From a virus, in the IMG/VR virus record IMGVR_UViG_3300008120_000012, positions 30,592-94,591 of that record: a stretch of 64,000 nucleotides of DNA; one strand, written 5' to 3'. The position numbers were made by a program, and so were the translations under genes. The number at the start of each line of letters is the position of its first letter. Within the stretch, counting starts at the first letter, position 1. The notes below the pieces were generated by a model. It had not been told where the DNA came from and ran no database searches. It saw nothing but the letters and a program-made list of their open reading frames with translations. Positions 45,165-62,115 of the stretch are shown in pieces.

Positions 45165-46109
45165 ATGAAAAAAAGTCGTAAAGTTCCAGATGGTAGTAGG
45201 GGAAAATTTAGAATAGTAAAAGATGGCTTATGTCATCATGCCCCATGGGATCAAGAAAAAACACATGACGAGAGTTATAAGTGTGACAAGCATTATGAAA
45301 ACTCAATTGGTATTTACACAAGGTCACTATTTTTTTTAAGACCATTAAAAGATATTTTAAAACTAGATAAACCAGTTGCAGATTTTCCAGGAGATAAAAC
45401 GCTTTGGCCAAATTATTTTGCAGATAGAAATACAGAAATTTTACAAGAAGAACTCAATAGCCATGGTTATAGATCAAATAGTTTTATAAATAAACATGAT
45501 GGAAAGCATGTATTGTTTTTAGGATGTTCTTATACTTGGGGTTCTGGATTATTTATAGAAGAAACTTGGCCTAAAATTGTATACAATAACATAAGTAACA
45601 ATGAAAAACTATCTGGATATTTCAATATGGCTTATCCTGGCGACTCTGTATTTTCTCAAGTATCAAATGCTTTTAAGTATTTTAAAAATTTTGGTAATCC
45701 GCAGGTTATTTTTTTCAATGTACCAGATTTAAATAGGTTTTATGGTTATTCAAAAACATCCAAGAGCATAGTAAAAATATTAACTGAGCAGAATGATAAC
45801 GGATTGATATCATTTTTAGCAGGACAATATTATTATATGTTAGAGCAATACTGTAATGCAAATAATATACAGTTGTTTTCTTTTAGTTGGTCATATGAAA
45901 ATAAAGAAATAAAGAATGCAGGAATTGAAGATTCTAAAACTTTTTATAAAATTAATATAAAAGACCTTTTTCATTTTACAAAACAATATAAAAAGGATCA
46001 TCATGGAGAAGACGCTTTAGAGTTAGCCAGAGATAATGCACATCTTGGAAGATCTGATCACGCATATTGGGCAAAGTTTATCACTGAGAAATATAGAGAA
46101 TCTCAATAA
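45165..46109 (+). CDS. SGNH/GDSL-type hydrolase
   Basis: A 314-residue protein with SGNH blocks: nucleophile Ser in LFLGCSYTWGSGL (block I), Gly in NMAYPGDSVFSQ (II), Asn in FFNVPDLNRF (III), and D-x-x-H in DNAHLGRSDHAYW (V). These enzymes cleave or transfer acyl/ester groups, often on glycans. It overlaps the carbamoyltransferase gene by one base. A second member with the same motifs is encoded at 62117-63073 on the other strand. Confidence 0.75.
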   Translation: MKKSRKVPDGSRGKFRIVKDGLCHHAPWDQEKTHDESYKCDKHYENSIGIYTRSLFFLRPLKDILKLDKPVADFPGDKTLWPNYFADRNTEILQEELNSHGYRSNSFINKHDGKHVLFLGCSYTWGSGLFIEETWPKIVYNNISNNEKLSGYFNMAYPGDSVFSQVSNAFKYFKNFGNPQVIFFNVPDLNRFYGYSKTSKSIVKILTEQNDNGLISFLAGQYYYMLEQYCNANNIQLFSFSWSYENKEIKNAGIEDSKTFYKINIKDLFHFTKQYKKDHHGEDALELARDNAHLGRSDHAYWAKFITEKYRESQ

Positions 46110-47536
46110 TGTATATATTGGGTATTAATGAAACATCTCATGATGCATCCGTATCTTTAATTAAAGACGGAGAAATACTTTTTGCAGGACATGCAGAAAG
46201 ATATAGTAAAAATAAAAATGACTGGTATGTTAATGATGAATTAATAAATGATGCTTTACAATATGGAAAACCTGATGCAATAGCCTATTATGAAAAGCCA
46301 TTGTTAAAGGCTTCTCGCTTATTCTTAAAAGGTGGTTTAGGAGATTGGAAACCTAAATATAATTTTGACAATATGATGCCAATATACAAATTTAAGCACC
46401 ACTATTCTCACGCAGCAGCAGGGTATTACACAAGTAAGTTTAATGATGCTGTAGTAGTAGTATTAGATGCAATAGGCGAGTATAACACTTCAACAATATG
46501 GGTTGGAGAAGGAAGCAATATAAAGTTAAAATACAAACAAAATTATCCAGTTAGTTTTGGTTTGTTTTATTCAGCATTTACCCAACTTATTGGCCTTATG
46601 CCAAACCAGGAAGAGTATATTATGATGGGTATGGCTGCATATGGGGACTGGCGCAGATATTATAAAGAAGTTGATGAATACTTCCCAAGATATGATAAAC
46701 AAAAATACAACCTACATACAGGAATATCTGATTGGGGAATGCAGATTACAGAACAAGATAGATTTGATATTGCTGCTGCAGTTCAAGTTGTATACGAGCA
46801 AAGATTAAACGAATTTATGCATATGGCAAAGAGCATAACTAATAAAAATAATTTAGTTTTTATGGGAGGATGTGCTCTTAATTCATCTGCTAACACACTA
46901 CTTTGGAATATTTTTGATGACGTTTGGATAATGCCAAATCCTGGAGATGCTGGCAGTTCTCTTGGAGCAGCAACAGCATTGTACGGCAAGCATGTAAATT
47001 GGAAAACACCATATTTAGGTTATGATTTAGGTGGAAAATATCCAGTTACTAAAATTATTACCAGTTTGATAAAGGATAAAGTCGCTGCAGTTGCGACAGG
47101 TAGAGCAGAATATGGCCCAAGAGCATTGGGTAATAGAAGTATTCTTGCAGACCCAAGAGATCCTAACATAAAGGATAAAGTTAATTTAATTAAACAAAGG
47201 GAATTATTTAGACCATTTGCTCCAGTAGTTATGGCAGAATATGCTAATAAATGGTTTGACATGGATTACGAAAGTCCATATATGCAATACACTGTAAAAT
47301 GTTTACAGCCAAATAAGATACCTGCAGTAGTGCATCAAGATGGCACTTCAAGAGTACAAACAGTCACAAGAGAGCAACATCCAGGACTATACGAAGTTCT
47401 TTCAAATTGGTATGTAATGACAGGTGTTCCAGTTTTATTAAATACTAGCCTAAATATTAAAAGTCAGCCATTAATCAATGATGAAAATGATATTATAAAT
47501 TGGGAAAAATCTTACAACTTTACAATATGTAGGTAA
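46109..47536 (+). CDS. Carbamoyltransferase (NodU/TobZ family)
   Basis: A 475-residue enzyme that transfers a carbamoyl group from carbamoyl phosphate, via ATP, to hydroxyls of sugars or other small molecules. The N-terminal ASKHA-like start is ILGINETSHDASVSLIKDGE, and HHYSHAAAGYY (about residues 96-106) supplies metal ligands. GGCALNSSANT and the YrdC-like region AEYGPRALGNRSILADPR are diagnostic. Encoded one base from the SGNH hydrolase, it may modify virion or host surface glycans; nucleotide modification is another known use of phage carbamoyltransferases. Confidence 0.88.
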   Translation: MYILGINETSHDASVSLIKDGEILFAGHAERYSKNKNDWYVNDELINDALQYGKPDAIAYYEKPLLKASRLFLKGGLGDWKPKYNFDNMMPIYKFKHHYSHAAAGYYTSKFNDAVVVVLDAIGEYNTSTIWVGEGSNIKLKYKQNYPVSFGLFYSAFTQLIGLMPNQEEYIMMGMAAYGDWRRYYKEVDEYFPRYDKQKYNLHTGISDWGMQITEQDRFDIAAAVQVVYEQRLNEFMHMAKSITNKNNLVFMGGCALNSSANTLLWNIFDDVWIMPNPGDAGSSLGAATALYGKHVNWKTPYLGYDLGGKYPVTKIITSLIKDKVAAVATGRAEYGPRALGNRSILADPRDPNIKDKVNLIKQRELFRPFAPVVMAEYANKWFDMDYESPYMQYTVKCLQPNKIPAVVHQDGTSRVQTVTREQHPGLYEVLSNWYVMTGVPVLLNTSLNIKSQPLINDENDIINWEKSYNFTICR

Positions 47537-54911: not shown

Positions 54912-55922
54912 ATGAAATTTTATAATCAATCTCTATGCTTTGATGACATATTGTTAGTGCCTCAACATTCTAATGTTGTAAGCAGAAAACAGATAGACAT
55001 ATCAATGAGTGGTTTTGATTTTCCAATTGTTGCCTCCCCAATGGATACTGTTTGTGAAGCATACATGGCAGAATCAATAGCAAACGAGGGCGGTCTTGGA
55101 ATAATTCATCGCTATATGAACACATCTGAAAGACTAATATCATTTGAACATGCTGCTTCTAAAAATAGTGGCCGTGGCATTGGTATTGCACTTTCTTCCT
55201 TAGAATGTTTTGATACTGATTTTATTGATAGTGCTATTGAACTGGGCTGTTATTGGTTTTGTATAGATACAGCAAATGGACATAATGATGCAGCAATAAA
55301 AGCGGTGCAGCATCTTAGAATGTATTATCCAGGCATCCACATTATGGTTGGAAATGTATCAACTGTAGATGGATTTTCAATGTTGGCAGAAGTTGGAGCA
55401 GATGCCATTCGTGTGGGTATTGGTGGTGGTGCTACCTGTACTACAAGAATAGTTTCTGGACATGGCATGCCAACCCTGCAGTCTATTATTGATTGCTATG
55501 AGTATAAAAATAAAAATCATATGGACACACTAATAATTGCAGATGGTGGAATCAGAACTACTGGAGACATCGTAAAAGCCTTTGCAGCAGGTGCAGATAT
55601 GGTTATGCTGGGATCTATGCTGGCTGGCACAGACGAGGCTCCAGGAGCCGTTATTGAAGGATTTAAGGTATTCCGTGGCATGGCTAGTGAGGATGCTCAG
55701 GTAGATTGGAAAGGCCAATCTTCAGTAGTTGAGGGTATATCAACAAAAATAAAATATAAAGGGCCAGTTAAAAATATATTTGAAGAAATAAGAAATGGAA
55801 TTGGTAGTGGATGTTCTTATTCAGGAGTATCTAAACTATCAGAGTTGGCTGAGAATTCTGAATATACGATTGTATCAACATCGTCATTGCAAGAGTCTAA
55901 GCCACATGCTATACTAATATAG
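54912..55922 (+). CDS. IMP dehydrogenase / GMP reductase family enzyme
   Basis: A 336-residue TIM-barrel enzyme lacking CBS domains. [19 protein letters not shown] is the N-terminal family signature. [19 protein letters not shown] (about residues 169-187) contains the catalytic Cys, and [20 protein letters not shown] is the phosphate-binding loop. [17 protein letters not shown] is the C-terminal flap. The absence of CBS and the length around 340 residues resemble GMP reductase, but IMPDH is not excluded. It would shift purine nucleotide pools during infection. Confidence 0.85.
55887..55915 (+). promoter_or_regulatory. Promoter TTGCAA-N17-TATACT with extended TG
   Basis: TTGCAA (55887-55892) and TGC-TATACT (55907-55915) in the end of the purine gene. 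The leader contains SD AGGAGGA before the ATG at 55951. Confidence 0.6.
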
Positions 55923-58894: not shown

Positions 58895-58898
58895 TACG

Positions 58899-58972
58899 TG
58901 CAACAGGTAGGACTTGAACCTACGATAACCGAATTATGAGTTCGGGGCCTTAACCGACTTGGCTACTGTTGC
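58899..58972 (-). tRNA. tRNA with CAU anticodon (Met or Ile2)
   Basis: The minus strand folds as a complete tRNA of 74 bases: acceptor GCAACAG/CTGTTGC, D arm GCC/GGC, anticodon arm CCGAA-CTCATAA-TTCGG with anticodon CAT, short variable loop TTATC, T arm GTAGG/CCTAC with TTCAAGT loop. All stems pair perfectly. CCA is not encoded. It could be elongator Met or lysidine-modified Ile. Its 5' end overlaps the stop of the upstream cupin gene by 10 bases. Confidence 0.93.
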
Positions 58973-59872: not shown

Positions 59873-59957
59873 TTTGATCAACCCCATACGTCATTTGAAT
59901 ATAGCATACAAACCAACCGCAAATAAAAGCGGGGATAAGCCATAAAGCATGAATCAT
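59862..59957 (-). CDS. Single-pass membrane micro-protein
   Basis: A 31-residue protein, mostly one hydrophobic helix (IHALWLIPAFICGWFVCYIQM). It has an SD (AAGGGAG) and its ATG overlaps the previous stop (ATGA), so expression is likely. Function unknown. Confidence 0.5.
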   Translation of the reverse strand: MIHALWLIPAFICGWFVCYIQMTYGVDQSGE

Positions 59958-60439
59958 TTTGTTCTCCCTTCATGAGTTACCCAATAATATTTACATGTAG
60001 AGCAACATGGTTGGTTATATATACTATGTTTTGCATAACCAAAATGTGCATAATATATTGGATCTTTGTCAAATAAACTTGCTTTATGTGTTGTTACTAC
60101 ACGCATTAATTTTGTTTTATCATACCAAAATGATGGTGCATTATTACCCCAATCATCCCAGCATTGATCTTTTAGTCTATTAAGATTTGCTTCATTGTTT
60201 TCTGTACGAATGCCACGTTTACGAGCCTCATGAATCATGGCTTGCACATAACTCCACAAACCACGCTCAAAACCTTTCCACATAAGCACAGCAGGATGAT
60301 TACGCCATCCACCAGTAGGCGACTTACCAGATAAAACATTAAGGATTTGATAGCATTCAAGTATCTGCTTATTTAATCTTTTGCTGTCAAGCATACTAGC
60401 AGTAACCACAGCATTTGATGATGGTAAAAAAGTTTGCAT
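59954..60439 (-). CDS. Pyrimidine-dimer DNA glycosylase-like protein
   Basis: A 161-residue protein beginning MQTFLPSSNAVVTASMLDSK, with RLNKQILECYQIL and GGWRNHPAVLMWKGFERGLW, the signature of the endonuclease V-like pyrimidine-dimer glycosylase family found in actinobacteria. It probably excises UV-induced dimers or binds damaged DNA, useful for a surface-water phage. A C-terminal CCSTCKYYW is an added Cys group. Confidence 0.78.
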   Translation of the reverse strand: MQTFLPSSNAVVTASMLDSKRLNKQILECYQILNVLSGKSPTGGWRNHPAVLMWKGFERGLWSYVQAMIHEARKRGIRTENNEANLNRLKDQCWDDWGNNAPSFWYDKTKLMRVVTTHKASLFDKDPIYYAHFGYAKHSIYNQPCCSTCKYYWVTHEGRTK

Positions 60440-61613: not shown

Positions 61614-61859
61614 CTATAGTTCTTCTATGTTTTCATCAAATTCTTCTGCAAAAGAATTTATTTCATAAAAAGTTCCCCATTTTTGATAAATGGGATATGT
61701 AACCTTATAGATATATGAATACACTTTATACTTTAATCCAAAATTATTATCCTCATCCAGCATAGCAATTTTCCAAATCGCTGTTCCATTGATTTCACCA
61801 ACAAAATTGGCAAACCAGCGCAAAGGTGGTTTTGAATTGTGTATAACAGTTGTCTTCAT
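61614..61859 (-). CDS. Small hypothetical protein
   Basis: An 81-residue protein rich in Trp/Tyr/Phe (RWFANFVGEINGTAIWKIAML, YKVYSYIYKVTYP) with an acidic tail. It starts at an ATG 6 bases behind a consensus promoter, without SD. Function unknown. Confidence 0.6.
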   Translation of the reverse strand: MKTTVIHNSKPPLRWFANFVGEINGTAIWKIAMLDEDNNFGLKYKVYSYIYKVTYPIYQKWGTFYEINSFAEEFDENIEEL

Positions 61860-61865
61860 GATTCT

Positions 61866-61894
61866 ATTATTCCATAAAAGTTTTCATATGTCAA
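61866..61894 (-). promoter_or_regulatory. Promoter TTGACA-N17-AATAAT, leaderless
   Basis: On the minus strand TTGACA (61889-61894) and TGG-AATAAT (61866-61874). The hexamer ends 6 bases before the ATG at 61859. Confidence 0.68.
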
Positions 61895-61986
61895 GACTTA
61901 GGAACGAGTCTTTCCCAACCGCATCTTTGGCAGTAGTATAAAATCTTATCTCCCATGTCTAATTCTTGATATCTGTGTAGGTGCAT
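61891..61986 (-). CDS. Zinc-ribbon micro-protein
   Basis: A 31-residue protein: HLHRYQELDMGDKILYYCQRC then GWERLVPKS. Two His at the start and CQRC could bind zinc. It sits 6 bases behind a leaderless promoter and its last bases overlap the -35 element of the next gene. Expression is plausible; function unknown. Confidence 0.5.
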   Translation of the reverse strand: MHLHRYQELDMGDKILYYCQRCGWERLVPKS

Positions 61987-61992
61987 TTTAAT

Positions 61993-62001
61993 ATTATAAC
62001 A
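61993..62001 (-). promoter_or_regulatory. Extended -10 promoter (TGTTATAAT), leaderless
   Basis: Ends 6 bases before the ATG at 61986 on the minus strand. Its TG overlaps the end of the upstream sRNA locus. Confidence 0.6.
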
Positions 62002-62080
62002 GAAAGGGGGCTGCTAGTTGTAATCAGAAAGGGAATTTTACTAGCAGCCCCTCTGCTCCACAGAAAGGGAAAGGAGCAGT
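61998..62080 (-). ncRNA. Double-hairpin sRNA with anti-Shine-Dalgarno-like loops
   Basis: The predicted transcript starts at A62080, 7 bases past TATACT. Hairpin 1: CTGCTCC/GGAGCAG (62079-62073 with 62059-62053), loop TTTCCCTTTCTGT. Hairpin 2: GGGGCTGCTAGT/ACTAGCAGCCCC, 12 perfect pairs (62051-62040 with 62018-62007), 21-base loop containing CCCTTTCTG. A U-rich tail (CTTTCTGTT) with a third CCCTTTCTG follows. No start codon or ORF lies inside. CCUUUCU equals the 3' end of 16S rRNA, so the loops could pair with ribosome-binding sites. Nothing known was matched. Confidence 0.65.
62000..62069 (-). repeat. Three copies of CCCTTTCTG
   Basis: On the minus strand the 9-mer occurs at 62069-62061, 62033-62025 and 62008-62000: once in each hairpin loop and once spanning the end of the terminator stem and its tail. 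Confidence 0.85.
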
Positions 62081-62086
62081 ACTATA

Positions 62087-62115
62087 AGTATAGCAAGGGT
62101 AGATCGTGATGTCAA
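62087..62115 (-). promoter_or_regulatory. Very strong promoter TTGACA-N14-TGC-TATACT
   Basis: On the minus strand TTGACA (62110-62115), a 17-base spacer ending TGC, and TATACT (62087-62092). It is nearly consensus at every element and stands directly behind the SGNH gene stop. It drives the double-hairpin RNA. Confidence 0.8.

Follow-up and report, generated by a model that had tools for sequence, protein, structure and literature searches.

A candidate small RNA family with covarying hairpins in uncultured phages, and complementary ribosome-binding sites in an upstream gene block

The RNA locus and the phage that carries it

The window (i.e., the whole stretch of DNA analysed, 64,000 nucleotides of a 94.6-kb viral record) contains, on its minus strand, a predicted small RNA preceded by a promoter and followed by a leaderless gene and a conserved neighbour gene. 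The features of the locus are the following:

62110..62115, minus strand: -35 hexamer TTGACA of the RNA promoter (read directly; promoter scan)
62087..62095, minus strand: extended -10, TGC TATACT (read directly; promoter scan)
61998..62080, minus strand: predicted small RNA, about 80 nt, ending in a U-rich tail (-10 position, fold z, covariance-model match)
62053..62079, minus strand: hairpin P1, 7-bp stem, 13-nt loop UUUCCCUUUCUGU (read directly; fold)
62007..62051, minus strand: hairpin P2, 12-bp stem, 21-nt loop (read directly; fold; inverted-repeat listing)
62061..62069, minus strand: loop copy 1 of CCCTTTCTG (motif scan)
62025..62033, minus strand: loop copy 2 of CCCTTTCTG (motif scan)
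62000..62008, minus strand: copy 3 of CCCTTTCTG, located after P2 in the tail and probably serving as the terminator U-tract as well (motif scan)
61993..61998, minus strand: TATAAT, -10 of the following promoter, immediately adjoining the tail of the RNA (read directly)
61891..61986, minus strand: small leaderless gene of 31 aa, MHLHRYQ..., ATG at 61986 (ORF list)
61614..61859, minus strand: SRPPLRW-type gene, a neighbour that related phages conserve near the RNA (35-45% identical to seven relatives)

The promoter reported by the first-pass annotation of this DNA is read directly as TTGACA (62115-62110), TGC (62095-62093) and TATACT (62092-62087). The spacer is 17 nt, 11 of 12 positions match sigma-70, the -10 is extended with TG, and the site is among the three best promoter-like sites in the 8.1 kb scanned. 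Its -10 places the predicted start of the RNA at A62080, as proposed before. Both perfect stems of that annotation are found, i.e., 7 bp for P1 (CTGCTCC 62079-62073 / GGAGCAG 62059-62053) and 12 bp for P2 (GGGGCTGCTAGT 62051-62040 / ACTAGCAGCCCC 62018-62007), with CCCTTTCTG in each loop. P2 is one of the two perfect 12-bp inverted repeats listed for the window with arms at most 60 nt apart. The third copy, announced for the tail, lies at 62008-62000; it begins within the 3' arm of P2 and doubles as the U-rich tail of this hairpin.

These are the sole three copies of CCCTTTCTG in the window and in the whole record. At least three copies were obtained in 1 of 100 whole-window shuffles, and three copies within 70 bases of one strand are far rarer than that. 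The RNA folds with -35.3 kcal/mol (z = -6.4, equalled by none of 200 shuffles) and both loops are open in the centroid. On the minus strand the RNA contains no ORF reaching 30 aa, as the first reading had it. A plus-strand ORF lying antisense over the RNA (61981-62109) was dismissed, since relatives differ freely in their stems and lengths. These sequence features support a non-coding, structured RNA that the phage encodes with a promoter of its own.

The ORFs upstream and downstream of the RNA vary among the members of the family described below; the SRPPLRW gene recurs nearby, and genes resembling MHLHRYQ... follow the RNA in L024/L032, L046 and L083. Near-consensus promoters TTGACA-17-(T/A)ATA(C/A)T, whose -10 ends 6 nt before an ATG and which thus serve leaderless genes, are located at 61894-61859 and 60474-60439 of the window (minus strand) and recur generally in the loci that have the RNA. 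In L348, L364, L367 and L374 an ordinary terminator GGGCTGGCGCAAGTCAGCCC is followed by TTTCTGATATAATG, a fused terminator/-10 junction like that of the RNA tail.

Streptomyces phages of the Stanwilliamsviridae have a large terminase with 55% identity to that of the window, and the DnaB-like helicase shows 39% identity; the carrier is therefore an actinophage relative. Megablast of 25 kb of the window against cultured phages gave no match. A freshwater Nanopelagicales-type host is only a guess. Other genes of the window encode an IMP dehydrogenase/GMP reductase domain (54912-55922), a carbamoyltransferase (46109-47536), a pyrimidine-dimer glycosylase (59954-60439) and a tRNA-Met (58898-58972).

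A covarying family with an invariant loop

A scan of IMG/VR for pairs of loop copies separated by 15-45 nt yields 94 stretches, many of which look like chance, while about 30 loci have both copies in hairpin loops on different stems. L009/L306 is near-identical to the window, and about 25 divergent relatives in other phage contigs retain promoter, stems and loops. The P1 stems of other members include CTCCCC/GGGGAG, CATCGC/GCGATG, ATCCGC/GCGGAT and CGCCCC/GGGGCG. When the stems of 16 relatives (window excluded) are aligned, 302 of 302 cells pair, and both sides have changed in 10 of 19 pairs, vs. 4.7 in shuffles and 0-3 in slid controls. In the covariance search that the first-pass annotation had suggested, the model of the 16 relatives, built without the window, matches the window at 62079-61994 with 20.9 bits (E = 1.8e-4 for 64 kb). 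Related phages keep both the loops and the paired stems, the loss of which had been named as the observation that would speak against the RNA. In a comparison of the window with L004 by eye, both sides have changed in 6 of the 12 pairs of P2.

Loci were also fetched independently through two neighbour protein families and then searched with the covariance model; they gave further divergent members with the altered loops TTCCTTTCTG, AACCTTTCTG, TACCTTTCTG and TCCCTTTCTA. Across 12 divergent P1 hairpins, CCTTTCT forms the sole invariant columns and the next G is nearly invariant. The relatives have TTG(A/C)nn 15-19 nt before TATAAT/TATACT, a listing that itself required a promoter-like sequence. 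Their tails consist of CUUUCUG or U runs, which look like terminators, and often abut the -10 of the next, often leaderless, gene.

The family is modular: (i) an optional 5' hairpin; (ii) one or two CCUUUCUG hairpins; (iii) an optional 3' pseudoknot before the tail. The RNA is longer than about 80 nt in members with extra 5' and 3' elements. The pseudoknot, CCUGRGCAUGA-N-UAAA, is found in most members; it is absent from the window, L004, L059/L063 and L096, where the 12-bp P2 replaces it. The window copy has the family features, i.e., a sigma-70 promoter right before the hairpins, CCUUUCU in an open loop and a covarying stem. An uncatalogued, covarying phage RNA family is thus very likely real. 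That the locus is a functionless chance assembly of repeats has a practically negligible probability: small size alone speaks for it, and it is opposed by compensatory covariation in two stems (16 sequences) and by the fold z of -6.4.

The junction with the next gene suggests another reading, in which the element would act in cis alone, as a promoter-proximal terminator/leader module between two transcription units, its loop sequence being relevant just to the terminator/promoter junction. The tail CUUUCUG directly abuts the TATAAT of the next gene in the window and many relatives, and an ordinary terminator in L364 and L367 has the same TTTCTG-ATATAAT junction. This reading is nevertheless very unlikely, since a strong promoter belonging to the RNA lies immediately before it, identical motifs are located in loops far from the junction, and the P1 hairpins and loops persist though downstream genes and spacers differ.

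Distribution in databases

Rfam 15 at the gathering score contains no family for the RNA (tRNAs alone matched), and permissive Rfam searches gave no family either, 6C (RF01066) being without a match even at E up to 10. The earlier statement that no phage RNA of this form is described agrees with Rfam 15 and with a limited literature check. Blastn against cultured phages revealed no meaningful DNA similarity to the RNA, and the cultured Streptomyces phages with related terminases contain no member.

In one genome each of 84,980 prokaryote species, the exact two-copy pattern occurs in 62 stretches, none with both copies in hairpins. Genomes drawn by "phylum" around a Streptomyces genome gave no matches; one of them (G020) has a 16S that is not actinobacterial-looking, and these negative results were therefore treated as uninformative. 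The family appears confined to uncultured phages, with the reservation that the exact-pattern scan could miss diverged chromosomal forms.

The pseudoknot and a second conserved leader

The H-type pseudoknot NUCCUGRGCAUGAN'-N2-7-UAAACUGCYC is far more widespread than the double hairpin and is present in at least 120 stretches of phage contigs. It also follows the double hairpin in L005, L017-L019, L031, L035, L046 and L056. In 98% of 118 distinct sites (L160-L276, six of them in L229), the outer pair of its P1 is Watson-Crick, vs. an expectation of 49%, and nearly all sites have a loop purine that matches its partner; the element follows a stop codon at a median distance of 10 nt. Among cultured phages, those of Mycobacterium, Nostoc, Synechococcus, Arthrobacter, Paracoccus and Lactobacillus are among the best matches, and we take these hosts to be organisms with RNase J. 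No Rfam family corresponds to the pseudoknot, and no paper on it was found in the set of literature searched.

RNA-less relatives have a different conserved promoter-led leader or RNA, GCAGGGTAACCTGC...CCCATCCACAGAAA...TGGAAGCAGTC, with the same pseudoknot at its end, just before the start codon (L328:5305-5396, L355:5165-5210, L365:5282-5374, L375:587-679 and L385:5279-5371).

In plant viruses, the 5'-3' exonuclease Xrn1 is blocked by an RNA motif called coremin (PMC10520033). Most double-hairpin relatives, though not the window copy, end in a pseudoknot NUC..GAN'-N-UAAACUGCUC, close to the coremin GUCCGAAGACGUUAAACUAC. The phage pseudoknot differs by an octaloop pairing with the 3' part, where coremin has a YGAD tetraloop and a second hairpin, and by its occurrence in DNA phages. 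That the phage pseudoknot may block RNase J is, by this analogy, a lead only.

Complementary ribosome-binding sites at gene starts

The 16S rRNA of many bacteria ends in CCUUUCU, and the loop core is identical to this terminal heptamer, in line with the anti-Shine-Dalgarno motifs noted before; the two genomes checked for their 16S 3' end carry GGATCACCTCCTTTCT. AGAAAGG is therefore an ordinary Shine-Dalgarno sequence, and complementarity alone proves little. For this reason, gene-start regions were compared between loci with the RNA (RNA+) and loci of the same neighbour-gene families without it (RNA-).

Of the 360 octamers compared at gene starts, the most enriched is CAGAAAGG, which is exactly complementary to CCUUUCUG, with 40 of 1229 in RNA+ loci vs. 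18 of 2510 in RNA- loci (p = 1.8e-8, RNA masked); it also ranks first with the RNA unmasked. The excess becomes modest when gene clusters are counted (16/603 vs. 13/1246, p = 0.015), RNA+ and RNA- loci differing by descent. For single genes, CAGAAAGG is found at the MPNW gene in 7 of 11 RNA+ vs. 3 of 15 RNA- loci, at the SLEQD gene in 5 of 13 vs. 0 of 19 and at the DLQEQ gene in 3 of 6 vs. 0 of 19. The MPNW gene of RNA- relatives often has CGAAAGGA instead. It must be noticed that CAGAAAGG is present on the same genes in RNA-less relatives too, e.g., in L355, L365 and L385.

Another comparison concerns the eighth base. At AGAAAGG sites, the position that faces the loop G but has no partner in mature 16S holds a C in 41 of 77 RNA+ sites vs. 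18 of 55 RNA- sites (p = 0.02). This excess hints that the sites follow the RNA, and not the ribosome alone.

The same complementarity could be directed at the host. The loops, as copies of the last seven 16S bases, would compete for host messages with an AGAAAGG Shine-Dalgarno, or occupy a factor of the 16S 3' end, and shift translation to leaderless phage genes. The invariant core is indeed exactly CCUUUCU, and a -10 directly before the ATG, i.e., the leaderless layout, is commoner in RNA+ phages (8.9%) than in RNA- relatives (5.4%) and other phages (2.2%), internal ATGs taken as control giving 1.4-2.3%. We consider this mimicry of 16S towards the host rather unlikely: the conserved eighth base G lies outside the mature 16S match, and RNA+ phages own more, not fewer, complementary sites, beside the RNA gene.

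An upstream block of complementary sites

The density of CAGAAAGG-N3-9-ATG is 8.7 per 100 kb in RNA+ contigs vs. 1.8 in nine RNA- contigs, and the backward-read control pattern is close to zero. Of the 42 such sites in eight distinct RNA+ contigs, 37 share the strand of the RNA and precede it by less than 10 kb (2.4-9.5 kb), whereas the control AAGGAG-N3-9-ATG has 10 of its 67 sites in this zone (p = 1.5e-14); the 10-kb limit was set after the positions had been seen, a concern that the control meets only in part, and shared descent inflates the counts. For contig G415 the RNA position was computed from L059 coordinates.

The sites lead runs of genes. Seven or eight CAGAAAGG-led genes are located within 6 kb upstream of the RNA in L031 and seven at 5-9.5 kb in L059, while the same genes are CAGAAAGG-led in smaller runs in L341, L046 and L418. 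Such a same-strand block is present upstream in seven distinct phages other than that of the window. The window's own record contains no CAGAAAGG outside the RNA, and its contig ends 2 kb upstream of the RNA, before the block. In the near-identical contig L306/G413, which extends 7.4 kb upstream, a single CAGAAAGG is found, before a 59-aa gene 5.3 kb away. The candidate regulon seen in relatives is thus only hinted at for the window's own phage.

Two other sets of partners were rejected: (i) genes within the window, since the 94.6-kb record has no other CAGAAAGG and none of 82 starts has AGAAAGG; (ii) conserved rRNA, the two rRNA-bearing stretches examined being without AGAAAGGG. The first-pass annotation had supposed targets with GAAAGG-type Shine-Dalgarno sequences in host or phage messages. 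The type of site holds, since the loop-complementary sites are such sequences; the best-supported candidates are the phages' own upstream genes via CAGAAAGG, and not unspecified host messages. It must be added that AGAAAGG is a plain Shine-Dalgarno and that the upstream block may simply be using strong ribosome-binding sites.

The repeated motif could also serve a protein: the CCUUUCUG copies of loops and tail would titrate a C/U-binding protein, as CsrB does CsrA. An identical short motif repeated in loops on variable stems, with one to three copies per RNA, is what such a decoy would look like. It is distinctly unlikely here, as it does not predict the clustered complementary CAGAAAGG sites and has no candidate protein.

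Proposed mode of action

The invariant loops on free stems, the several copies, the own promoter and the complementary block have as their simplest account a trans-acting RNA pairing over 8 bp. We thus lean towards a phage small RNA that would pair with ribosome-binding sites of its own phage's upstream gene block and lower their translation. In this scheme: (i) the sigma-70 promoter would drive the transcription of an RNA of about 80 nt; (ii) one or two hairpins would expose single-stranded CCUUUCUG in their loops, usually with another copy in the 3' tail; (iii) the loops would pair in vivo over 8 bases with CAGAAAGG, the extended Shine-Dalgarno of the same-strand gene run 2-10 kb upstream; (iv) the ribosome-binding sites so covered would see the translation of the block reduced in trans; (v) leaderless genes and genes with AGGAGG-type sites would be spared; (vi) the whole would most likely work, in the course of infection, as a timed switch. 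Whether the regulation is positive or negative does not follow from pairing alone. An occupied ribosome-binding site normally lowers translation, so repression, and not activation, is the default expectation, and the upstream block is probably turned down.

More broadly, it is plausible, though we put it forward tentatively, that one small RNA carrying copies of the 16S tail plus one base in its loops controls an operon-sized block of its own phage through a shared octamer site, that RNA and sites have co-evolved, and that the block is interspersed with an undescribed covarying pseudoknot maybe shaping RNA decay. To our knowledge, few trans-acting small RNAs with a defined regulon come from lytic phages. 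In the present case, sequence alone yields the RNA together with its structure and a candidate regulon, in uncultured actinophage relatives, a group whose gene regulation has been little described. Combined with a CAGAAAGG reporter (leader ACAGAAAGGACC-ATG), the RNA would constitute a direct test of whether a phage times its own genes via mimicry of the 16S tail.

Comparison with known RNA systems

The best sub-threshold Rfam match, the Vibrio sRNA MicX (RF01808), shares a stem-loop with UUCCUU in the loop; at 17.2 bits vs. a gathering score of 75 it is a chance-level match. The 6C RNA of Actinobacteria (B11, RF01066) likewise has two hairpins with pyrimidine-rich loops in an actinobacterial setting, but its loops have six or more C whereas those of the phage RNA have CCUUUCUG. 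The protein sponges CsrB and RsmY also repeat an identical motif in hairpin loops; this motif is GGA instead of CCUUUCUG, and no CsrA-like partner is known for the phage RNA.

The closest likeness in design is with LhrC1-5 and RsaE/RoxS of Firmicutes, which have, as the phage RNA does, several C/U-rich single-stranded motifs in loops and tail complementary to ribosome-binding sites. The phage RNA differs in being phage-encoded and in its core, CCUUUCUG vs. UCCC/CUCCC, with no sequence or Rfam match between them. The exact 8-nt complement of its loop is enriched and clustered at candidate target starts, as a feature of the LhrC/RsaE type, and these candidate targets, in contrast to those of LhrC and RsaE, have a single octamer in common and form one block next to the RNA gene.
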